Assembly: GCF_028330965.1 (NCBI RefSeq)
Contig: NZ_JAQMUB010000033.1
Location: 1 to 64,000 of the forward strand
Reading direction: 5' to 3'
DNA: 64,000 nt
Source: Oscillatoria sp. CS-180
Lineage (GTDB): Bacteria; Cyanobacteriota; Cyanobacteriia; Phormidesmidales; Phormidesmidaceae
Shown: piece after piece, positions 24,010 to 57,354 of the stretch
Layout: the number at the start of each line of letters is the position of its first letter
Numbering within the stretch: the first letter of the stretch is position 1
Program-made: the position numbers and the translations under genes
The notes under the pieces: model-generated
Databases searched by the model: none
What the model saw: the letters and a program-made list of their open reading frames with translations, nothing else
What the model was told of the DNA's origin: nothing

Positions 24010-26523
24010 CTACTCGCTTTGAAGGGTTTGCAAGGGTGCAGGTAGACTTGTAACCCTAGCGGTGTAGCCACCGTATAGAGCGTGAGTCCTGTGGATAACC
24101 TGGTTCAACGCTTCAACGTAAGCTGGATCGGGTTCTCTGGGCAAGGCGATACGAGTCATGTAGGTCGGCGAGTACACCGATTCAAAATGGCGGCTGATCT
24201 CTGGAAAGACCCTTTGCTGTCCTTCAAACTCAAAGAGCAAATCTACAGCGCCATCTTCGCGCTGGACAAATAGTGGGTCACTAAGGAGCACGAGCGGTAG
24301 CGCCAGCGAAAATTCGCTACTGCCTTTGGACAGGTGCCAAATGAGTTTATCGATTTTGTCTTTGGAAAGGTCGGGAAATAGCTGCTGAATGGCAACTGGA
24401 TCAATGCGTTGTAGGCGAGACGGGCCCGGTTGGCGATCGCCCGGCCAAGTCTCAATTCTAAAATCCTGCCGCAGCAGTCCGTGCAAAGCAGCTGGCGCAT
24501 TACGACCATCGGCCCCCGTGACCCGTTTAAGTTCAGGCCGATATTTTTCAACTAGCGGCAGCATCGCAACTTGTGCTGGCGGTAACTGAGTCGGGGGATG
24601 AGTAGCCGATAAGTTATGACCCGTGTTGAGAAATTTGATAAAGGTCTCGACATCCCAGCGATTGAGGTCATTGTTTGAGACCATCTTGAACCACAAATCA
24701 CCCATAGCCGACAGCGTTGGGGAATGGTCGGAATCGAGGGCCATCAGGTCAGGCACAACATAATTGTCGAGACCATATCGTTTGATGTCTTGTCCGTTGC
24801 CCCACTGCATCCCCAAATCAGGCATATCCCGCAAAAAAGGATAGAGACCACGGGCAAAGTTGAGGTAGTCAGGATGAGTGCGATCGCCGGGTTGAAATTC
24901 CTGGTCAACTAAGTCACTCAACCGCTTAGCCATTGCGACTGACAGCAACGAGAACGCTTCAGTCGTGATGTCCAGATCATGCTGCTGGAGCACTCTAAAA
25001 ACAGCGGCTTCTTGAATGGCAGCGGCTTTGTAATCGTTCTCAAGCTGTCTGATCTCGCTCTGAATGAGATTGATGTCTGACAGTAATTCTGGCTGTTGTT
25101 CCTTCAGAGCTGTCCAAAAGCGAGGATTAAAAGCCTGATCGCACAATAGAACGAGCAACAGTTCGGTTTCCGACAAACCTGGCGTATTTTTTTGAAAAAA
25201 GCTCATGAAGTGCTGTCTGGCTTCTGGATAACTTTCGGCAGCGGACGATCGCCGCAGTCCTTCTATCCGTGTCGCAAAAATTCCTAGCAGACGCGATGTA
25301 TCCATCTGATTCACAGACTGACGACTCAGAGTAGGGGTCAGTCCTATCTGTAACCAAAACGCTTCGCTGTAGTAATTGTCTGTCGCGTTTAGGATCTGAA
25401 CGCCATGGTTAATCGCTAACTCGCTGAGCCGCTGTCTGACAACGGTTTCTTGAGCGAGCTGACGTTTGTGACGATCTTGGTAGTCTAAGGCAGCCTGTTC
25501 TAAGTCTTGAGGAAAGAGAGCAATGCCCTGATCGGCAAGATGGGCGATGTTGAGGGCATGAACGGCTGGCGTATCTTCAGCCGCTGTGGGTGTGGGTAGA
25601 GGCAGTCGTCCTAATGCGATAGTTGTACTGACAAAGTTGGAGTCGGTGTAGTCCTGTTTAGTAGAGGATGCTTCAACTCGTTGAATTGCTTCAAGTCTGG
25701 CCCAGGGTTCGATTGGGGTGGCAATGAGCGATCGCAGCAAATATTGCTGGTTGGTCAGTGCTTGCTCATATTTATAAAAAGAGCGCAGGGGACCGGATGT
25801 ATGCCGCAAATCGGTCTCGCGCAAATAGGGAAACTCCAGCGTTAATAAGTGAGTTTCGACTAGGGGAATTACCGCCTCTAAGGAAACATCCGCTTTCTGA
25901 GCGGCCCAAAAGATATGGCCCCAAAAGGGACCCAAGTAGAAGGCATCAGTATCGAAGACTTGGTTCTCCACCAGCGTGGAGTAGTCTCCGCGCTCAAGTC
26001 CAGCGGCAATTAGCGGCATCGCTGGGTTGCGCTGTAGGTGCCAGAACAACTTGTCATCCAGTACTTGCCTTTGATGAGCAGGCAGAGTATCTCGAATGTT
26101 GTCGTATCCGGCTTGAGAAAGCGGAGGTACGACTGTTCCATTGGACAAGGTGAACGTGATGCTGTTGTCAGCCGCAATGTGATAGGTTGCCCCTTCCAAT
26201 AGCTGGATCGGTTCGCGCGGTTCGACACCTGTGAAGGCGACAAAGCTGCCACGGCTGACTTGGGTCAAAAAGGAGTTTTTCTCCTGCCGCACTTGCTGTA
26301 TCCAGGTCTGTAGCTGCTTTTTGGGAAGCCGTAACGGATTTGCCGCATGAGCATCAATGCAGTCGGAACAGTCGTGATGGTTCAACGTCTCTGAATGGCC
26401 TGAGACGGCAATGCCAGCGCTCCCTAATAAAATCCCCCCCAGTGCGATCGCACAGGCTGACACAGGAAAGGAATAATTTAGCCAAAGTCGGCGATCGACC
26501 TTCTTGAAGGAACGGCGCTCCAT
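24010..26523 (-). CDS. Large membrane-anchored protein of unknown function, 837 aa
   Basis: I do not recognise this family. Residues about 1-22 are basic (MERRSFKKVDRR), followed by one hydrophobic segment (about 17-42, ACAIALGGILLGSAGIAVSG), so it is anchored or exported with most of the chain outside. Just after it is a His/Cys cluster, HHDCSDCIDAH, that could bind metal or heme. The rest is mostly helical, with no repeats visible and few cysteines. It starts with ATG 26523. It lies upstream of the imelysin-DUF1111 pair on the same strand but 400 bases away, so a shared role is only a suggestion. Its coding quality is good throughout. Confidence 0.85.
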   Translation of the reverse strand: MERRSFKKVDRRLWLNYSFPVSACAIALGGILLGSAGIAVSGHSETLNHHDCSDCIDAHAANPLRLPKKQLQTWIQQVRQEKNSFLTQVSRGSFVAFTGVEPREPIQLLEGATYHIAADNSITFTLSNGTVVPPLSQAGYDNIRDTLPAHQRQVLDDKLFWHLQRNPAMPLIAAGLERGDYSTLVENQVFDTDAFYLGPFWGHIFWAAQKADVSLEAVIPLVETHLLTLEFPYLRETDLRHTSGPLRSFYKYEQALTNQQYLLRSLIATPIEPWARLEAIQRVEASSTKQDYTDSNFVSTTIALGRLPLPTPTAAEDTPAVHALNIAHLADQGIALFPQDLEQAALDYQDRHKRQLAQETVVRQRLSELAINHGVQILNATDNYYSEAFWLQIGLTPTLSRQSVNQMDTSRLLGIFATRIEGLRRSSAAESYPEARQHFMSFFQKNTPGLSETELLLVLLCDQAFNPRFWTALKEQQPELLSDINLIQSEIRQLENDYKAAAIQEAAVFRVLQQHDLDITTEAFSLLSVAMAKRLSDLVDQEFQPGDRTHPDYLNFARGLYPFLRDMPDLGMQWGNGQDIKRYGLDNYVVPDLMALDSDHSPTLSAMGDLWFKMVSNNDLNRWDVETFIKFLNTGHNLSATHPPTQLPPAQVAMLPLVEKYRPELKRVTGADGRNAPAALHGLLRQDFRIETWPGDRQPGPSRLQRIDPVAIQQLFPDLSKDKIDKLIWHLSKGSSEFSLALPLVLLSDPLFVQREDGAVDLLFEFEGQQRVFPEISRHFESVYSPTYMTRIALPREPDPAYVEALNQVIHRTHALYGGYTARVTSLPAPLQTLQSE

Positions 26524-47819: not shown

Positions 47820-48434
47820 ATGGTGGCAACTACGCGACGCAAGACAGTAGGACTTGGCATCTTAACTGCTGTAATTGGGGTAGCGATCGCCCTCCCATTT
47901 GCCTTGATTCATCCAGTTCTACCGTTCACAGTTGTCCTGCTTGGGTTTGGAGCCATCATTTTGCTTCAACGCTGGCGCTGGGTGCCAAAACACTCTATGG
48001 GATACCTCTTGGGCTGCCTGGTGGCTTTAGTAGCACTCCTGCCTGCCGTCTCCCTGTTTAAGTTTGCGGAACGAGGTTTTGACGACGGCCCTTTTTATGG
48101 CGTGGCCTATGACGGTGTGATTACCGGAGAAAGTGCCAGCGATCGCATGGACTACCGTGACGGTGAATTGCTTATCTATAATCGACCCGCCGACAAAGCC
48201 CCTATCTTGGCTTACCGAGTTGAGGAGGATGTTGAATGGGCGCGAGAGATGGATATTGGCCAGAATTCTCGATATGAAAAATACCGCCTGGAGTCTATTG
48301 AAGAGCCAGAGCTAGCCTACGGTATCTTTCGCGATCGCTTGGATTTCGAGGCCAACTGGAACTTTGGGACGGAAGCCGGACGTGCTTATTTATGGAAATG
48401 GGGTGGGTTTCATCGCTTTTTCCTGAGTTGGTAG
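47820..48434 (+). CDS. Hypothetical membrane protein, 204 aa
   Basis: 204 residues. Three hydrophobic segments lie at the N-terminus (about 8-80: VGLGILTAVIGVAIALPFAL, PFTVVLLGFGAIILL, GYLLGCLVALVALLPAVS), followed by a soluble acidic domain (about 90-204) rich in aromatic and charged residues (YDGVITGESASDRMDYRDG). I do not recognise the family. ATG 47820. Confidence 0.68.
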   Translation: MVATTRRKTVGLGILTAVIGVAIALPFALIHPVLPFTVVLLGFGAIILLQRWRWVPKHSMGYLLGCLVALVALLPAVSLFKFAERGFDDGPFYGVAYDGVITGESASDRMDYRDGELLIYNRPADKAPILAYRVEEDVEWAREMDIGQNSRYEKYRLESIEEPELAYGIFRDRLDFEANWNFGTEAGRAYLWKWGGFHRFFLSW

Positions 48435-48440
48435 TGGGTG

Positions 48441-48475
48441 GGAAAAGAAACAGCCGAGCAGGGGTTGCTCGGCTG
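48441..48475 (-). terminator. Intrinsic terminator of the haloperoxidase gene
   Basis: Perfect 10-bp stem cagccgagca / tgctcggctg (48451-48460 and 48466-48475), loop of 5. Reading the minus strand, the tail is tttcttttcc. It ends transcription from the haloperoxidase gene, 42 bases past its stop. Confidence 0.82.
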
Positions 48476-48516
48476 ACCAGGAGAGAGGCTATACGACCTG
48501 AAACACAGTCCAGACG

Positions 48517-50379
48517 TTAAATCCGGACGGTTTGACCATCAAAAAGCGGCACGGACATGGAGAAGTTTTCGCCGTAGGTCAGCTTTTGCTCCTCTAGAAT
48601 GCCAATTGCGATCGCTTCACCCATGCGAACCGATTCGGAGTAGTCGGTGAAATAGTGCACCCCGGCCCAATTGCGTCCGATAGAAATATTGGACGCGAGC
48701 TTGTTGAGTTCACCTTCTACCGTCAAGTCAGGCACGCAGTTCGCCACCTCTAGAGATTGACCCGAGGGTGCGGGACAGACGTAGGGACGCGGCAGGACAT
48801 AGCGATGGTCGAAGAAGGCTTTCAGGATGGTGACGCAAGCGCCCGCCACCGTTGCATGACCCGCGCCATAGGCCGGGTGCATCGGCGATCCTTCTGGGAA
48901 CGCCATCGGCAGCAGATAGCTAGTAAGGGTTTCTTGGTCCTCATCGCGTCCGTCTTGAATGCTGTTCTGGCGAGCATTGTGAGCGCGAACCGCTTCTAAT
49001 AGGCCCGTTTCGGAGAGGCGATCGCACATCGCTTCGAAGGGCTGGAAACTAGGATTGCCGGAAGTGTTCTTCATCCGGTGTAGACGACCGCCAATAGCTT
49101 CAGGCCGCAGCCGCCGATGGACGTTAAACTTCTGGAATCGAACCGCCTTGAGCGCTCGGGTCGCTACTTCCGTCACCAAGGACAGAATGTGGGGGCCACC
49201 AAAATGCGCAAAGCCCTGCTGGCGATCAAGAATGTCTGCACCCTGGAAGGGAACACCCGGATCAAAGGGAACCTTAAGGGCCAGCATTGCCAAACAAGCG
49301 TTGAGGTAGGCTTCGTACAGCGCATCGTAATGCACGTAGGTGGCTAGGTCACGGGGTGTGGCAATGAACCGATAGCGAGTGTCGGGACAGTCACCCTCAT
49401 AGGTTTCGGTGCCTCGGAGGTCAGCGCCGTTTTGGACGTCCAGCCACGATTCCCAAGTCGTCATATAGTCGCGATAGGGCGTCGCGACCCGCACTTTGCT
49501 CTGAAAAACGAGGGCACCATATTGCACGAGTCCAGCTCGGGCGCTGTCCTCAGTCTGCGCTTCGCTACCTAGCTCTGGTGTACCCGCGCAGAGAAACTGC
49601 GAGAGATAGGGACCGACGTTGTCGCCAAATGTGGTGCCCCGAAAGGCGTTCTGCTGGGTGACTTCACCGCGACGGCGAGCTTGGGCCTCTGGGGACAGCC
49701 CTGGCATTGGGCTACCGTTAAACCAAGCCAGATGATTAAGCCGGGCGATCGCGGCATTGACGTCGCCATCGTAGGCGAACTTGGCAAATGGCACATCCCT
49801 GAGCAGCGCCATTTCATAGACCTCGGCCATCTCAGCAATCAGTTCGTCGCTGTCGGCGACGGGTGCCGGAGGCATGGTAACGGCCTGAGCATCGGGACCC
49901 TGGAGGTCGAAGGTGTTGCCCGCTCCCTGACTTTCCCAGGCCCGCACATCGACAGATCCACCTTTCGCATTTTTGACCGCATCAGAATTGGTAAATCCCG
50001 ACTGCCAGGTGATGGGCTGGTTGTACTGGGCTCCCCGAGCAATGACTTGACCCGACGCATCCCGTTGCAGAGGACCCAGGGGCGTGTCCCGAAAGTCGCG
50101 CGTATCTCCCGAATCAATGCCTCGGACAAACTGTTGGAAATCATTAGGATCGGCAATCAGTCCGTCATCTTCTCTGTGGGGCAGACCCTTGGTGTAGTTA
50201 GTAATGTAGGACGGTTTGCCACCACGGAGACTGTCTTCAGCACTGGCCCCAGCACCAGGTTTTGCAAAGCGATACTGAAGCTCTTCTCCGTTAGCCTTAT
50301 GGATGGGGTGTTCTCGACCAGTGGCAAATTTTGCAGCCTCGATGCGAACGTTAAGGGCTTGATTACGACGTGATTCCAT
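48517..50379 (-). CDS. Vanadium-dependent haloperoxidase (bromoperoxidase-like)
   Basis: 620 residues. It oxidises halides with hydrogen peroxide to hypohalite, using a vanadate cofactor. The active site motifs of algal/cyanobacterial enzymes are all present: KFNVHRRLRPEAIGGRL, PMHPAYGAGHATVAGACV (with the catalytic His) and SIGRNWAGVHYFTDYSES (Arg and vanadate-binding His). No signal peptide is seen. A GAGGAA ribosome-binding site 8 bases before ATG 50379 supports the start. Length fits the algal-type bromoperoxidases (about 600). It is monocistronic, with its own terminator. Whether it prefers bromide or chloride cannot be told. Confidence 0.94.
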   Translation of the reverse strand: MESRRNQALNVRIEAAKFATGREHPIHKANGEELQYRFAKPGAGASAEDSLRGGKPSYITNYTKGLPHREDDGLIADPNDFQQFVRGIDSGDTRDFRDTPLGPLQRDASGQVIARGAQYNQPITWQSGFTNSDAVKNAKGGSVDVRAWESQGAGNTFDLQGPDAQAVTMPPAPVADSDELIAEMAEVYEMALLRDVPFAKFAYDGDVNAAIARLNHLAWFNGSPMPGLSPEAQARRRGEVTQQNAFRGTTFGDNVGPYLSQFLCAGTPELGSEAQTEDSARAGLVQYGALVFQSKVRVATPYRDYMTTWESWLDVQNGADLRGTETYEGDCPDTRYRFIATPRDLATYVHYDALYEAYLNACLAMLALKVPFDPGVPFQGADILDRQQGFAHFGGPHILSLVTEVATRALKAVRFQKFNVHRRLRPEAIGGRLHRMKNTSGNPSFQPFEAMCDRLSETGLLEAVRAHNARQNSIQDGRDEDQETLTSYLLPMAFPEGSPMHPAYGAGHATVAGACVTILKAFFDHRYVLPRPYVCPAPSGQSLEVANCVPDLTVEGELNKLASNISIGRNWAGVHYFTDYSESVRMGEAIAIGILEEQKLTYGENFSMSVPLFDGQTVRI

Positions 50380-51547
50380 TGGGGCATTTCCTCTACGTAT
50401 CAGAAAAATTTTGTGTTTGCACCCACGATAAATTCAACAAATCGAAAATTTGAATTCCAGATTTTTCTCAAAGAAATACTTTGGATACTGGTCGTCTCTG
50501 AAAGCCAATTGTCTACTTGAATGTCTGAAATTGATTGATAGAATAGGATCTCAGCCTATCTAGAGACTCCCTAAAATTAAAATAGTGAAGTAGTCTTTAG
50601 TCTTTTCTCAAAGGAGTACTGCTATTTTTTAGAGCCTCCCTTTTACACGCCGAGAAGATTTTATCCGGAAGAATTTAGCTCGGTTTTAGTTGAAGTTTTT
50701 GACTCAATAGGATTTGTGCATCAGATAACCTGCAATTTTGGCAGGACTGATTCGGTGTGAAGGCAGAAAAAACATGGTGTGAAGTAAACCTTTCTGCTGG
50801 AGGCTGAAGCGACCATAAAAAGTTGCTACAACTTTCACTGTTCTCTTGAGCTTCCTTTGGACCGTTAACGAAGGAGCTCGGGCCTCAATTTCTCTCGTGA
50901 CAGAGAACGGACCCGACCTTTCCAAGGGCATAGCGGAGAATCCGCCGACGCTCTATGCCCGGGAGGGGCAGAGAACCCAACGAGTGACACGAAGGAATAC
51001 TTCTGCGTTCTAGAGAGATCGACAAGGGGTGCAGAGGACCCAACGAGTGGCGCAAAGGACCCAACAAGTGGCGTAGAGAAATCAACGAGTGGCGTAGAGA
51101 AACCAACGAGTGGCGCAAAGGACCCAACGAGTGTTTTGAGCGAAAACTTATATGTTGTAGAGGAACGCTTAAAGGTTACTTATCTTTTGAGGAGTGTTCG
51201 AGTGAAGTTAACGTGTGTTCGATAGACAATTGCTCGGCGTGGGCGATGTCAACCCTGCTGGATAAGCTGGTCCCACACGTGAGACATGAAGGGGCGATCG
51301 CTTCTGGAATTCAATTCGACCTTGCTCAATGATGAGACGATGAGTCCTGAAACATCGTGGGCCTTCCTTTGAGGCTCGGCGGCGAGGCAAAAAGACAAGA
51401 GCGAGATCAATCCTCGTGCTTGAGAATGGATGCTGTGAGCTAGAAGGCTGAGGTTCTCGTTGGCGGTATGTTGCAGTTGTGGGTTTCTGCGGCAACTTCT
51501 GCTTTGCCAGGGATATAGTTGTGGCAATCGTGCTCAGCGTCTGGACA
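50380..51547. other. Long non-coding region with a 21-bp tandem array
   Basis: Nearly 1.2 kb without a supportable gene, between the haloperoxidase (minus) and the NACHT gene (plus). It must hold both promoters. The left half is AT-rich; the middle holds the 21-bp array listed separately. Apparent reading frames on the minus strand through 50885-51606 are low in quality. Confidence 0.6.
50975..51135. repeat. 21-bp tandem repeat array
   Basis: Units of 21 bases with the consensus acccaacgagtggcgcaaag plus one base start at 50975, 51038, 51059, 51080, 51101 and 51122. The two positions between 50996 and 51037 are degenerate units in the same phase. Clean units differ at a few sites (gcaaagg versus gtagaga). 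The period is a multiple of seven, so a minus-strand frame reads as heptads of the type LRHSLGP, but no ribosome-binding site supports translation. Confidence 0.85.
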
Positions 51548-54500
51548 ATGGTTTTCGACATTCTTGCTGCGATCGGGCTAAAGGAAACAGGCAAATATAT
51601 CGCCAAAGATGTGCTGTTGCCGCTGCTGCAAGGCAGTTTGGAAGACTACGCAAAGGATTTCTTCAAGGGCTGTGTGGCGGATGTTGTGGGATTGGCGAGT
51701 CAAGCGCCGATGCAAAAAGCCTTGGGGCAAGCAGTGAAGGCGTTTGTAGAACTGGTGGAAGAAGAGCTGGAATTTCAGGGCTGCATAGGGGCTGAGATTC
51801 GCGACTTTTATGAAATACCGCTGCGCCAGTTTATGGCCGATCGAGCCGTGAAGGCGACCCTGGGACGAGCGTTTGAGCTGGACTGTCGCAGTATTGATGC
51901 AGAGGTGTTGGCACAACGATGGGGGGATCAGAATCTGCAATCTTTGCCGGAAGACTTTGACTGGCAGCAGATTGGCAAGCAGTATGTCCGGGCGGTACAA
52001 GGCATTCTGCGGAGTTCAGACGAACTGCGGAACGTGTTGAAGCTGCACAATCAGGAAGCCATACGTCAGGGCGTCGAGGAATTGGTGGGAATTCCGCCAG
52101 ATTTTGATTTGCGGAAGTATCAGGAAACTGTACGGGAGCAGTACGGCAACCTCAAGCTGGAGTCGCTAGACACCACGGGCTATGCATACAACGACTTGAA
52201 GCTGTGGCGCATGTTCATTCCCCAAGATGTGCGGACGTGTCAGGAATTCAACCCGAAGGTGTATGAGATTCCCAAGGAAAAGCTAAAAGAGCTACAGCAA
52301 CGAGGGGAATTGGATGCGGAAGCACTGGAAGCTTCACAGATCGAGGAATACCGCCAGACCTATGTAGAGCAGCCCATTCAAAACATATTAGAGGCAGTTG
52401 GGCGAGTTGAGGGTGGGGGGCAGCGGAGTCGTCCGATCGCAGACTACGCTGTAGTGCTGGGAGATCCCGGATCGGGGAAATCAACGCTATTGCAATACAT
52501 TGCCTTGCAGTGGGCGGAGCAGCCGCTCCACGACTTGAAAGAGCTGGCCCAGCGCCCGCTGCCCCTACTGATTGAGCTGCGGAAATATGCCCGCGATCGC
52601 AATGACCAGAAGTGCAGCAGCATTGTGGACTATCTGCACCAGGGAGATATTGCCTGTCGGCTAAACCAGCAGCGGCTTTATGAGGTGTTGACCAATGGGG
52701 ATGCCGTGGCCCTCTTCGACGGCATTGATGAGGTGTTCGACCCCAACCTGCGAGAAGTGGTGGTGACGGACATTCATCGCTTTACTAACAATTATCCTGC
52801 CGTGCAGACAGTGGTCACGTCGCGCTGGCTGGGATATAAAGCACAAACTCTGCGGGATGCGGGGTTTCAGCACTACATGCTGCAAGACCTGGCAGACGAT
52901 CAGATTGCCGAGTTTATCGAGCGCTGGCACGACCAGACGTTTCTAGAAGGGACAGACAAAATCCGCAAGCGAGAGCGTCTACACAAGGCGATTCGCGATT
53001 CCAAGGCCATTCGGGAACTGGCGGGGAATCCACTTTTGCTGACCATGATGGCGATTTTGAACCGCAACCAAGAGCTGCCCAGAGACCGACCTGAGTTGTA
53101 CAACCAGGCATCGCGGGTGCTGCTGCACCAGTGGGATGTGGAGCGGAATCTCATCGAGCAGAAGCTGGATCCGGTGACGATTGACTATCGAGATAAGCAA
53201 GCCATGCTCCGCAAAGTGGCGTTTCACATGCAGTCTGGAGAAGCAGGGCTAGCCGGAAACATCATCAGCGCTCAAGATCTGGAAGCCATTTTGTCGGAGT
53301 ATTTAAAGTCCATCGATATTGCTCAACCGCGCGATGTCGCGCGACGGATGATTCAGCAACTGCGGGAGCGCAACTTTATTCTGTGTTACCTCGGAGCCGA
53401 TAACTATGGCTTTGTACATCGGACATTTTTGGAATTCTTTGCGGCTTGGGCTTTTGTTTGGGAGTTTAAAGAAACCCAAACCATTACGTTTGAGCAACTG
53501 CGAGACCAAACCTTTGGGAGGCACTGGCAGGAGGAAAGCTGGCAAGAAGTCCTACGACTCGTTGCTGGAATGATTGAGTCTAAATTCGTTGGCAGCCTCA
53601 TCGCATTTTTACTGGACCTAAAAATCAACAAATCGAACTTTGCTGAAAATGACTATCTCAAACGAGAGGGTCTGAGCAATTTATTGCTAGCGGCCAATTG
53701 CCTCTCAGAGGTTCGTAATCGTCGAGAACTAGCTGGCGAAGCTGATCACCTTTTTCAGAGGCTGAAAACTGAAATTGAAGATCAGTATCCCCACTATCTG
53801 GATAAAAGCGCTTCGGAGGCAGTCGTTAGCGTTATCGTGAGCACTTGGCGGGAGCAGATAGATCTCCTCCCCCTACTCAAAAACTGGATAACCGTTCATG
53901 CAGCTTCGTACGTCCCAGAATCGGTTGTTGCCGCGATCGCACAAAACTGGGCTACCCTTAAGAGCACTCCTGTGTGGCTCAAAGCCCGCGCTCAAGAAAA
54001 CGAGAACGGTGCGGTGCGCCGTGCCGCCGTGCAGGAGTTGGCGAGAGGCTGGAAAGAGGACGCCGAGACCTTGCCGTGGCTCAAAGCCCGCGCTCAAGAA
54101 GACGAGAACTGGGATGTGCGCCGTGCCGCCGTGCAGGAGTTGGCGAGAGGCTGGAAAGAGGACGCCGGGACCTTGCCGATTCTCAAAGCCTGCGCTCAAG
54201 AAGACGAGAGCAGTGCGGTGCGCCGTGCCGCCGTGCAGGAGTTGGCGAGAGGCTGGAAAGAGGACGCCGAGACCTTGCCGTGGCTCAAAGCCCGCGCTCA
54301 ACAAGACGAGAACTGGGCGGTGCGCCAAGCCGCCGTGCAGGAGTTGGCCAGAGGCTGGAAAGATGATCCAAATCTGTTTGAATTTTGGTGCGATCTTGCT
54401 TTCAATGATCCCTTTGAACGGGAATATGACTGGCAAGAAAATCCTCGCCAAACGGTTTTAGAAGTTTTGATACAGCAATATCCTGACCATCCCAAAACCT

Positions 54501-54595
54501 TAGAACTGCTGCAAGACCGTGCTCTGAATGATAGTGATGAGGTGTTCAAGAAAAGGGCAGCGAAGCAACTTGTTAAGCTTCTGGGGGAGGGCTAG
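51548..54595 (+). CDS. NACHT-family NTPase with C-terminal HEAT-like repeats (bNACHT-type)
   Basis: About 1015-residue STAND NTPase. An N-terminal helical domain of about 290 residues (MVFDILAAIGLKETGKYIAK) precedes a NACHT module: Walker A VVLGDPGSGKSTLLQYIAL (near 304), Walker B VALFDGIDEVFD (near 387), then TVVTSRWLGYK and the winged-helix region with RTFLEFFAAW. Four 34-residue HEAT-like repeats of nearly identical sequence follow at residues about 810-940, then a divergent end. Bacterial NACHT proteins are antiphage sensors; ligand and effector here are unknown. A GTG at 51479 would add 23 residues; ATG 51548 matches homologue starts better. No clear ribosome-binding site is seen for either. 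Confidence 0.9.
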   Translation: MVFDILAAIGLKETGKYIAKDVLLPLLQGSLEDYAKDFFKGCVADVVGLASQAPMQKALGQAVKAFVELVEEELEFQGCIGAEIRDFYEIPLRQFMADRAVKATLGRAFELDCRSIDAEVLAQRWGDQNLQSLPEDFDWQQIGKQYVRAVQGILRSSDELRNVLKLHNQEAIRQGVEELVGIPPDFDLRKYQETVREQYGNLKLESLDTTGYAYNDLKLWRMFIPQDVRTCQEFNPKVYEIPKEKLKELQQRGELDAEALEASQIEEYRQTYVEQPIQNILEAVGRVEGGGQRSRPIADYAVVLGDPGSGKSTLLQYIALQWAEQPLHDLKELAQRPLPLLIELRKYARDRNDQKCSSIVDYLHQGDIACRLNQQRLYEVLTNGDAVALFDGIDEVFDPNLREVVVTDIHRFTNNYPAVQTVVTSRWLGYKAQTLRDAGFQHYMLQDLADDQIAEFIERWHDQTFLEGTDKIRKRERLHKAIRDSKAIRELAGNPLLLTMMAILNRNQELPRDRPELYNQASRVLLHQWDVERNLIEQKLDPVTIDYRDKQAMLRKVAFHMQSGEAGLAGNIISAQDLEAILSEYLKSIDIAQPRDVARRMIQQLRERNFILCYLGADNYGFVHRTFLEFFAAWAFVWEFKETQTITFEQLRDQTFGRHWQEESWQEVLRLVAGMIESKFVGSLIAFLLDLKINKSNFAENDYLKREGLSNLLLAANCLSEVRNRRELAGEADHLFQRLKTEIEDQYPHYLDKSASEAVVSVIVSTWREQIDLLPLLKNWITVHAASYVPESVVAAIAQNWATLKSTPVWLKARAQENENGAVRRAAVQELARGWKEDAETLPWLKARAQEDENWDVRRAAVQELARGWKEDAGTLPILKACAQEDESSAVRRAAVQELARGWKEDAETLPWLKARAQQDENWAVRQAAVQELARGWKDDPNLFEFWCDLAFNDPFEREYDWQENPRQTVLEVLIQQYPDHPKTLELLQDRALNDSDEVFKKRAAKQLVKLLGEG
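53975..54382 (+). repeat. Four 102-bp in-frame repeats in the NACHT gene
   Basis: Units begin at 53975, 54077, 54179 and 54281, each 102 bases, with the 34-residue pattern WLKARAQ-DEN--VRRAAVQ then ELARGWKEDAETLP. Long runs, such as gccgtgcaggagttggcgag, are identical in all four at the DNA level, while variable positions cluster at DEN--V. Confidence 0.9.
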
Positions 54596-54663: not shown

Positions 54664-54778
54664 ATGGCCACTACTATGCCATGTAGATCTAGACGATCCA
54701 GCTGGCTCGACTCCGGGCTATCGGTATCCTCACGTCATCATTCAAAATAATGACGGTCTCACAGTGGCAAATTCCTAA
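54653..54778 (+). pseudogene. MazF/PemK-like toxin N-terminal fragment
   Basis: The frame reads MTRWPLLCHVDLDDPAGSTP, then GYRYPHVIIQNND and stop. This matches the first about 35 residues of MazF-family endoribonuclease toxins (VDL-dP-GSEPGYRRPVVIVQND), but the remaining about 75 residues are gone. A decayed toxin gene is the best reading. It is squeezed between the NACHT gene and the converging DUF5615 gene. Confidence 0.6.
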
Positions 54779-55121
54779 CCCTAAACATCTCATCGCTTAC
54801 AGAAATAATGGCTCCAGAGCATAAGTCCTCTTCACACTGAGACAGAACATTTGCTAGACGCGCTTCAACAACCTCACGACTGGCATTGCCTAGTCGGAAT
54901 AACACTACACTCGGCAAAACTGCTCCGCTAATGGCTAATAAATAGCCAAAGTCTAGATCGATGGTTAGTACAATACGGCCTTCGGCTTTGGCTTTCTGCA
55001 AGATCTCTCCATCGGGTAGACGCTGTAACCCTTCATCCAATAAATGTACGGCGTCATATCCTTGCTGGCGTAGCCACTCCACCGTCCGTGGAGAAATGCC
55101 CATATCTGCCAAAAACTTCAT
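54759..55121 (-). CDS. DUF5615 PIN-like toxin
   Basis: 120 residues of the DUF5615 PIN-like family (COG4634), thought to be RNase toxins. Conserved acidic sites are in MKFLADMGISPRTVEWL (first Asp) and IVLTIDLDFGYLLAISGA (Asp pair). The ATG overlaps the stop of the DUF433 gene as ATGA, a typical toxin-antitoxin arrangement with the antitoxin first. Nuclease activity is inferred. Confidence 0.9.
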   Translation of the reverse strand: MKFLADMGISPRTVEWLRQQGYDAVHLLDEGLQRLPDGEILQKAKAEGRIVLTIDLDFGYLLAISGAVLPSVVLFRLGNASREVVEARLANVLSQCEEDLCSGAIISVSDEMFRVRNLPL

Positions 55122-55351
55122 ACAGCTTTTGCTGTCGTGTAAATGCGCTCAGAGGCTAGCCAAGCTGCATAATGGAGTGCCTGTCGAACATCCTCAGCTT
55201 CTAAATAGGGATAATCTTCGATGATTTCGGCGATCGTCTTGCCATTAGCAACTAAATTTAGCACTAAGGAGACAGGCACTCGCATTCCCCGAATACAAGC
55301 CTGTCCTGACATAACGTGCGGCTCAAATGTAACGCGCTCAAATTTCAACAA
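55118..55351 (-). CDS. DUF433 antitoxin
   Basis: 77-residue DUF433 (VapB-like/winged-helix, COG2442) antitoxin: FERVTFEPHVMSGQACIRGM, then RVPVSLVLNLVANGKTIAEI and EDYPYLEAEDVRQALHYAA. It should bind the DUF5615 toxin and its own promoter DNA. First gene of the pair. Confidence 0.92.
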   Translation of the reverse strand: MLKFERVTFEPHVMSGQACIRGMRVPVSLVLNLVANGKTIAEIIEDYPYLEAEDVRQALHYAAWLASERIYTTAKAV

Positions 55352-55366
55352 AGCTTCACCTTGATA

Positions 55367-56101
55367 TCAATCATGGGATTTATTGGACGTTTGCTTGTCA
55401 GTCTTTATTGATAACTCTCTCACCCACTGCCGTAAAGCTAACTCTGCCTCCACCTCATCTTGCCGAGCCGTTGCCAAAAATTCATAGAGCTTCAGCTTGG
55501 GCACCTGTGGAAATGTTGGACTAGCCTCAACTTCTTGATACGCGCGATCGCGCAGCGTATAAATGCGCCAAACTTCGCCGTTGTATCGCCAAAATTCTGG
55601 AATGTTCATGGCGGCGTAGAGGTCTAGCTTGTCGATGTCCGTATGGGTAATATCCACCTCGACGACTAAGTCAGGCGGCGGGTCTTGATCCAAATCCACA
55701 TCTCGACCCGCCACCAAGGGTTGATTTTGGATGTAGTAGGCATTGTCAGGCTCAGCCGATCGTCCCAACGACTCTCTGTCCAACGTCGTCGATCCCATCG
55801 TTTTGACCTTCAGGCCATATTCCACCACCAGTATCCAAATGAACTTCTCGATTAATCGAGCCGAGAACTCGTGGATTTCTAGCGGGATAGTAACTTCTAA
55901 CTTCCCTTGCAGGTAGGTGAAACGAATGTTGCGATTGTCTAAAGGGGAAGCGCCGCGATCGCGGCTCAATGTTTCTCGCAGCGTTTGGTAGCGCTGCCAG
56001 TCGAGGGAGTGAAAGAATAATCGCCTTTCGCCAATGGGTTGAGGAACAGGCTGGGGCACCAACGGAACGACACTGACCATACGGGTACTGAAGAGCGACA
56101 A
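55367..56101 (-). CDS. Uma2 family (DUF820) restriction-endonuclease-fold protein
   Basis: 244 residues. Uma2/DUF820 proteins have a PD-(D/E)xK fold and are highly multiplied in cyanobacteria. Seen here are AEPDNAYYIQNQPLV, DPPPDLVVEVDITHTDIDKLDLYAA (the catalytic D ... E-x-x motif region) and the end NIPEFWRYNGEVWRIY. The C-terminal 30 residues are charged. It lies 15 bases beyond the antitoxin gene end on the same strand, but with its own start. Its biological role is unknown. Confidence 0.88.
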   Translation of the reverse strand: MSLFSTRMVSVVPLVPQPVPQPIGERRLFFHSLDWQRYQTLRETLSRDRGASPLDNRNIRFTYLQGKLEVTIPLEIHEFSARLIEKFIWILVVEYGLKVKTMGSTTLDRESLGRSAEPDNAYYIQNQPLVAGRDVDLDQDPPPDLVVEVDITHTDIDKLDLYAAMNIPEFWRYNGEVWRIYTLRDRAYQEVEASPTFPQVPKLKLYEFLATARQDEVEAELALRQWVRELSIKTDKQTSNKSHD

Positions 56102-56187
56102 ACTAAGACAGTTCCAGTCTACCGCTGGGAAAAACAGGCCACCCTGCGACTGACGGTAGGGCTAAAACTGGATTGTCAGAGTACTGG

Positions 56188-57354
56188 TCAGCGTCGTCGC
56201 AACTTGCTGACGAGTTTGCGGGAAAATTGAACGTTCAGAGACTCTCGATCAGCCCAGTCTTGCAGAATGCGGTAGAACAGCTGGCGATCCGGGGCTTGCA
56301 GAACGGCGGTCTGGTCAGCCGTTTCAATCGCGTAGGGATACCCACCGCCGACAACGACTTCGGCCTTAACCCAATCGAGCACTGATTCAGCGAGACCCGC
56401 TTCCCACAACCAATGGGGCATTTCTAGACGAGCGGGTGGACGATTACGGGTCGTTTGCAAATAGCTGAAGACGATTTGATCTTTTTGGTCACCATATTGG
56501 TCTAGGATGCCTTCGCGATCGCATCTCAGCAGTGGCGTGCGATCGCCCCATTTCATCAAGGGATTGAGCAGTTGAGCATCGTGGATGGTTTCAACCGGAT
56601 TGAGCTGGGGCTGGTAATGCTGGAGCAGCGTGGTGAGGTCGCGGGCGTAAGACGTATCAATGTACCCGACGAGCGGCACTTGGTACGCCTGACTCGCTTG
56701 CAACAAGCTAACCATAGCTCGCACATAGGCTTTTTGACTGTCAGGATCAAAGGCATCGGCGAAGGTCACCACGAGGGAGCCGTCAAATAGCACGAGCGAT
56801 CGCTCCGGCTGTTGGCAAGATTCCATGTAGCGGACGAGCCGACTCACTTCCATCTCAAAGCGACGAATATTGACCTGGCGATCAACGGGTTCGCCCTGCT
56901 GCTTCACTTGCAAGTCTCTGGGGGTGAGGATGTCTAACTCAATATCTTTGCGATATTGCCCATCAGCCGTGTGGGGATTTTCAAACCAGCCAATTTGGAC
57001 TAGGGCGATCGGAACTGAAATGTCCTTGCTCGGAAATATCTGCGAGCCATCCACCGCAAACGTTGTGATGCCCGATAGCAGAGAGCGGACCCAAGCCAGA
57101 CTTTCCTCTCGGTTTTCCCAGCAATGGGCATTGGGAATAACGCCTTTTTTGATCGCATCGAAGGTCTCCAATGGATGAGACCCCACCCGCCTACCCGAAA
57201 GTTGTTCAGCAACGTGACTAGAGCACTGTTCCGTTAGCGTCCGCCAAGCGTCGCGATAGTGCTTCAGATCGCTATTGAGAGACCGATCAAATCGAGTGAG
57301 ATCCTTACGCTTTTCATCAAGCACAGCACGGATCTGAGCGGGACTGACTGGCAT
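56188..57354 (-). CDS. NurA-domain nuclease
   Basis: 388 residues with a NurA 5'-3' nuclease domain: FAVDGSQIFPSKDISVPIAL (metal-binding Asp near 97), ERSLVLFDGSLVVTFADAF (second Asp) and PLVGYIDTSYARDLTTLL (third Asp). In archaea NurA works with the HerA helicase on DNA ends. No HerA is nearby. It starts with ATG 57354 and lies 86 bases from the Uma2 gene on the same strand, in a defence-like neighbourhood. Confidence 0.87.
   Translation of the reverse strand: MPVSPAQIRAVLDEKRKDLTRFDRSLNSDLKHYRDAWRTLTEQCSSHVAEQLSGRRVGSHPLETFDAIKKGVIPNAHCWENREESLAWVRSLLSGITTFAVDGSQIFPSKDISVPIALVQIGWFENPHTADGQYRKDIELDILTPRDLQVKQQGEPVDRQVNIRRFEMEVSRLVRYMESCQQPERSLVLFDGSLVVTFADAFDPDSQKAYVRAMVSLLQASQAYQVPLVGYIDTSYARDLTTLLQHYQPQLNPVETIHDAQLLNPLMKWGDRTPLLRCDREGILDQYGDQKDQIVFSYLQTTRNRPPARLEMPHWLWEAGLAESVLDWVKAEVVVGGGYPYAIETADQTAVLQAPDRQLFYRILQDWADRESLNVQFSRKLVSKLRRR

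Follow-up and report, generated by a model that had tools for sequence, protein, structure and literature searches.

A predicted vanadium-dependent bromoperoxidase in Oscillatoria sp. CS-180, inherited within its lineage and found at changing chromosomal sites

The stretch of Oscillatoria sp. CS-180 DNA analysed here (64,000 nucleotides, contig NZ_JAQMUB010000033.1; referred to throughout as the window) very probably carries the gene for a working vanadium-dependent bromoperoxidase belonging to the group of AmVHPO and the Corallina enzymes; this gene is a stand-alone unit that has been inherited within its lineage, has moved between chromosomal sites and has sometimes been lost. We put the probability of this reading, in which the activity is predicted by comparison with relatives, at roughly 0.88. 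Judged by its sequence, the gene is an intact member of the red-algal/cyanobacterial ("group 1") vanadium haloperoxidases, and thus an ordinary addition to a known family.

Results

Identity of the gene and its product

A single uninterrupted frame for 620 amino acids lies at exactly 48517-50379 on the minus strand. Eighteen more open codons precede Met1 in the same frame, and Met1 aligns with residue 1 of AmVHPO and of the orthologues.

48517..50379, minus strand: gene for a vanadium-dependent haloperoxidase of bromoperoxidase type (620 aa; coordinates include the stop); assigned from frame, homology, residues and fold match

Because searches of Pfam and NCBIfam returned no family for the protein, its identity rests on a solved-structure search, a fold search and its relatives. 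When the protein was compared with solved chains by phmmer, 10 distinct sequences were matched, all of them vanadium haloperoxidases, and AmVHPO ranked first. Matches over the whole length, much stronger than chance would give, were obtained to 5LPC (E 3e-200, query residues 1-620), 1QHB (E 4e-165) and 1UP8 (E 1e-163), and identity over aligned residues was 58.0% to AmVHPO (605 aligned), 53.2% to Corallina 1QHB and 52.2% to 1UP8. These full-length matches, together with the vanadate-site residues described below, confirm the original prediction of a bromoperoxidase-type vanadium haloperoxidase in a cyanobacterium.

An AlphaFold model of the protein, built as a monomer only from 28 sequences, had a mean pLDDT of 80.8 and a pTM of 0.85. 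Its top Foldseek match was 5LPC (E 1.7e-49, TM 0.84), and the only significant matches, 12 at E <= 0.001, were all haloperoxidases of group 1. Active-site loops belong to the regions modelled with the lowest confidence, pLDDT falling below 50 at residues 349-352 and 388-390. AmVHPO is described in the available part of PMC11871015 as a dodecamer (a hexamer of dimers), and by analogy the window protein may have a similar oligomeric state. The gene is under purifying selection: dN/dS, calculated from our own substitution counts for four orthologue pairs, was 0.035-0.066 in three of the pairs, at near-saturated dS, and the pair with genome G012 gave no finite dS.

The vanadate site and predicted halide preference

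The residues K398, R406, H478, G484, H485, R545 and H551 of the Corallina enzyme correspond to K417, R425, H501, G507, H508, R569 and H575 of the window protein. Catalytic and vanadate-site residues of these enzymes fall in three conserved motifs, and His551 of Corallina, the counterpart of His575, is the axial vanadate ligand. Codon coordinates were derived by counting from the first base of the gene (50379).

48655..48657, minus strand: codon of His575; residue taken from the alignment
48856..48861, minus strand: codons of Gly507-His508 (Corallina Gly484/His485); preceded by Ala506, where algal enzymes have Ser483
49129..49131, minus strand: codon of Lys417 (AmVHPO Lys428, the active-site lysine)

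The algal-type vanadate motifs had been described as entirely intact, and this holds for every counterpart except one, as the algal S483 is replaced by A506, the cyanobacterial form. Across 103 family rows, a sample that includes the best 80 of 291 relatives, the position of Ala506 is Ala in 95, Ser in six, Gly in one and a gap in one. Over the same sample, Lys417, Arg425, His501 and Gly507 are each present in 102 rows (the other row being a gap), His508 in 101, and Arg569 and His575 in 100 each, with three gaps. The substrate-pocket residues Glu139, Gln399 and Phe401 of AmVHPO, as well as its His513, are likewise all present, as E149, Q388, F390 and H501; these four, Lys428 and Arg425 are the AmVHPO residues named in the part of PMC11871015 available.

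Arg414, three residues before Lys417, aligns with Arg425 of AmVHPO, the halide-selectivity position, and Arg occupies this position in 95/103 rows of the sample with the best 80 of 291 relatives. The accessible text of PMC11871015 gives monochlorodimedone conversion by wild-type AmVHPO, which carries this Arg, as 53% with bromide and 8% with chloride, places Trp at the equivalent position in chlorinating brown-algal and fungal enzymes, and cautions that a single residue does not set halide specificity across the whole class. Since the window protein has Arg here, as AmVHPO does, bromide, together with iodide, is the expected substrate, and little chloride activity is predicted. Six other cyanobacterial haloperoxidases (L020, L023, L025, L027, L028 and L029) have Trp at this position, as the chlorinating enzymes do, and are candidates for chloride oxidation in cyanobacteria; a seventh, L026, has Tyr.

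Chromosomal site and neighbouring genes

The haloperoxidase gene is convergent with an ORF of 204 aa (47820-48434) and divergent from a NACHT gene (51479-54595; NNH2, NACHT, HEAT) about 1.1 kb away, which agrees with the earlier description of a gene that stands alone. No repeats of the kind that mark a mobile element were found at its two edges within 48000-51500. The TPR-DUF3122-TsaE-EVE block to its left is kept in all five relatives examined (G001, G003, G004, G005 and G012), and the haloperoxidase gene is absent from that place in each of them. In G001 and G005 it comes after CNNM and ABC-transporter genes; in G004 the corresponding stretch has the ABC gene and the conserved ORF that comes next side by side, with no haloperoxidase between them. 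This clean absence would most simply be a loss, as the marker trees make G001 and G004 sisters and place G005 outside them. In G012, G003 and G002 the haloperoxidase gene adjoins a thioredoxin gene, which is present with no haloperoxidase alongside in the window genome, G001, G004 and G005. The gene thus occupies at least three sites among seven related genomes and is missing in one. The DNA shared with relatives consists of the gene and about 90 bp upstream, extending to about 50465-50468 in four of five comparisons and to 50392 only in G012.

Across 86 loci no fixed operon partner was found, the commonest neighbour family being short-chain dehydrogenase (9/86). The thioredoxin gene and the ABC-transporter gene were each considered as partners and rejected, as the orthologue of each in the window genome lies away from the haloperoxidase gene. 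PADLOC gave no match for the haloperoxidase protein, no conserved linkage of the gene to defence genes was found, and the NACHT neighbour is peculiar to the window site; the adjacent NACHT/Uma2 region is coincidental.

Several features of the surrounding DNA are recorded in their own right. The C-terminal HEAT part of the NACHT protein (plus strand) is encoded by a 102-bp tandem array (53974-54363, 3.8 copies, 90% matches) and resembles proteins that vary by repeat exchange, and a 21-bp tandem array (63-bp higher order) lies upstream of the NACHT gene at 51011-51133. Beyond the NACHT gene, at 54759-57354 on the minus strand, lie genes for DUF5615 PIN-like, Uma2 and NurA proteins; NurA orthologues occur in G001-G005 and G012, and in the five of these genomes that were examined their surroundings are different. 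An ORF of 837 aa at 24010-26523 (minus strand) has no Pfam family.

Proposed mechanism and physiological role

In the proposed mechanism, vanadate would be bound to His575 with no redox change, with Lys417, Arg425, Arg569 and the backbone of Gly507 keeping it in place. Hydrogen peroxide would convert it to peroxovanadate, and halide attack on this species would yield HOBr or HOI, which would then react with nearby organic molecules or with further peroxide; oxidation of bromide to HOBr by peroxovanadate is documented in the part of PMC11871015 available. With Arg414 in place, chloride oxidation would be weak, as in wild-type AmVHPO. The enzyme would be supplied by a stand-alone gene free of operon partners, its sequence inherited in a leptolyngbyoid (Halomicronema-like) lineage, and the gene itself would have moved between chromosomal sites and at times been lost. 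The cell would most likely use the reaction to consume hydrogen peroxide, spending halide in the process and leaving halogenated by-products; production of halogenated metabolites and defence are alternatives. In the available text of PMC3591785, the function of such enzymes in diatoms and in Synechococcus CC9311 is described as poorly understood.

A competing account of the role is that the bromoperoxidase serves chemical defence in vivo, with HOBr or brominated compounds directed against competitors, rather than peroxide removal, and we regard it as a possible, less likely reading. The family chemistry of vanadium bromoperoxidases favours such a role, and brominated compounds are known from cyanobacteria (PMC6394484, in the part available). 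Against it, no recurrent biosynthetic partner appeared at the 86 loci and no N-terminal hydrophobic signal sequence was apparent by eye, although neither observation excludes defence. Peroxide consumption remains our preferred reading.

Distribution in cyanobacteria

Haloperoxidase matches were found in 21/59 of the nearest genomes and in 21/386 genomes drawn across the phylum, both counts taking in the genome of the window itself as well as subfamilies further removed, and the patchy distribution that had been proposed is therefore upheld. The 291 relatives in named genomes include, among the best 80, proteins from cyanobacteria, Bacteroidota, Pseudomonadota, Planctomycetota, Nitrospirota and others; the close named relatives among these 80 are 'uncultured Halomicronema' and 'Leptolyngbya sp. 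SIOISBB', whose proteins are identical to those of G003, G002 and G005, which belong to the window's genus. Genome G020 has two haloperoxidases (L009 and one at a second place, C285), with 72% and 49% identity to the window protein. In the marker trees G021 branches off next to the lineage, just outside it; its only haloperoxidase (L011) is of the more distant subfamily.

Descent of the gene

A quick tree of 103 rows was drawn from a sample with the best 80 of 291 relatives, and so biased to close relatives, after nine pairs of identical haloperoxidase proteins (each pair from one genome present in two collections) had been merged. Careful trees were built from 36 chosen rows of these 103 and from a smaller set of 11 rows, and marker trees from PurH (17 genomes) and a ChlN-like protein (13 genomes) of 28 genomes searched. 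In the 36-row tree the window protein falls in a clade of 13 rows, all cyanobacterial (100/100), and within it in a clade of six (100/99) made up of five members of its own genus, itself included, and G012. The order in the best careful tree, (G012,(window,((G003,G002),(G005,G001)))), is identical to that of the ChlN-like marker and compatible with PurH; the marker trees also hold G004, the genome that lacks the gene. The inner forks are moderately supported (90/83 and 92/88 in the 36-row tree, 74/79 in the 11-row tree), and the quick tree does not order the window protein and G012, for which the careful trees were used in its place. Orthologues are about 80-85% identical to the window protein, similar to PurH (79-82%). 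Because the tree order and the level of identity both follow the markers, the gene has been inherited inside the lineage, with at most short-distance exchange, and there is no sign of arrival from elsewhere.

Short-distance exchange of one particular kind, in which the gene descended vertically in the lineage and the window copy came from a nearby G012-type lineage within the family, was considered and is unlikely. The G012 protein is the closest (85-86%), yet both marker trees place G012 beyond the genus, and a window+G012 sister arrangement is not rejected in the test on the 11-row set (p-AU 0.10). However, the best careful trees put G012 outside (90/83; 74/79), and the short path between the two proteins could equally reflect slow change in both; all of the arrangements leave the gene in the same lineage.

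In the deeper parts of the family, five or more changes of the label Cyanobacteriota are required on starred branches of the quick tree (sample with the best 80 of 291 relatives), which makes ancient transfers between phyla likely. The haloperoxidase L099 of Nostoc carneum NIES-2107 groups with Nitrospirota and Pseudomonadota (100/100) and is likely a transfer between phyla.

Recent horizontal acquisition of the gene together with the neighbouring defence-like genes, the origin that had been proposed, is very improbable. The patchy distribution, a window site unlike that of all congeners examined and the transfers between phyla deeper in the family, as in Nostoc carneum, could be read in its favour. 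So could GC3: at 59.4 (z 1.9) it is somewhat above the average of 31 other genes in the window, 52.7, and near the values of the flanking NACHT (59.9) and Uma2 (58.2) genes. However, the gene tree follows the marker order within the lineage, same-genus orthologues are identical to about the PurH level, and the orthologues lie away from the window's NACHT and Uma2 genes. A search of 72,556 plasmid records found no close homologue (six records matched, all below 60% identity), and a search of 50,697 phage records found no haloperoxidase match. The phylogenetic check that had been proposed for the transfer thus gave largely the vertical pattern, at moderate inner support. Patchiness and a defence-like neighbour had been read as recent transfer; within this lineage the sequence follows descent and the address alone changes.

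An upstream element shared by the orthologues

The DNA flanking the gene contains the following features.

50434..50462, minus strand: 29-nt element RTCWGGAAT-N14-TGWTGA, a possible promoter, with the same inner spacing in 6/6 orthologues
50463..50480, minus strand: 18-nt direct repeat (AGTAYTYCTTTGAGAAAA), copy 1, just upstream of the 29-nt element
50603..50620, minus strand: 18-nt direct repeat (AGTAYTYCTTTGAGAAAA), copy 2
48451..48475, minus strand: terminator-like hairpin and T-rich tail, located past the end of the gene and before the convergent 204-aa ORF

Each of the six orthologues has the 29-nt element at -82 to -86, within poorly conserved surrounding sequence; because it was these six that brought the element to notice, its invariance among them does not count as independent evidence. 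The window contains it once, and a scan of 97 family upstream stretches gave 6 with the element, those of this clade only. Its form resembles the GGAA-type promoters used by extracytoplasmic-function sigma factors, and it may be a stress-sigma promoter; a sigma-70 scan found no promoter on the strand of the haloperoxidase gene. It is conceivable, if doubtful, that the gene and about 90 bp upstream form a minimal unit with its own stress-type promoter, which within one small lineage has reached three or more chromosomal sites and kept both its sequence inheritance and its regulation. If this were true, the bromoperoxidase would be part of a dedicated stress regulon. The 18-nt repeat was dropped as a common regulatory site, as it is not kept in relatives, and terminator-like sites are no commoner here than in shuffles.

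Discussion

That the protein shares the haloperoxidase fold and catalyses something else in vivo (a phosphatase-like reaction, a rearrangement or iodide oxidation only) is highly improbable: some homologues of vanadium haloperoxidases do carry out other reactions (NapH3, a weak match in the fold search) and bromide use by the window protein is a prediction from sequence, but the protein is 58% identical to AmVHPO, an enzyme with tested biochemistry, and has its catalytic and pocket residues. The six-genome set of cyanobacterial orthologues and a sister genome with a clean natural absence provide material for testing the physiological role of bromoperoxidases.

Among characterised enzymes, AmVHPO of Acaryochloris marina MBIC11017 (5LPC, 8Q20-8Q22) resembles the window protein over its whole length (58%) and shares its start, its vanadate site, with Ala where the algal enzymes have Ser, its halide-position Arg (R425/R414) and its E139/Q399/F401 pocket. 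It differs in that it sits in another cyanobacterial clade of the family, and nine of its 12 cysteines have no Cys counterpart in the window protein. The bromoperoxidases of Corallina officinalis and C. pilulifera (1QHB, 1UP8) are 52-53% identical to the window protein and have the same fold and vanadate-site residues; unlike it, they form a red-algal clade on a long branch, with Ser483/485 in place of Ala506 and Asn in place of His392. The Ascophyllum nodosum bromoperoxidases (1QI9, 5AA6) have Trp at the halide position, according to the available part of PMC11871015, whereas the window protein has Arg. They share its fold class (TM 0.66-0.70 by query length), and the sequence match is confined to about residues 153-619 of the window protein, at 26-28% identity. 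Finally, the VBPO of Synechococcus sp. CC9311 is reportedly (Johnson et al. 2011) a cyanobacterial vanadium bromoperoxidase with native activity.
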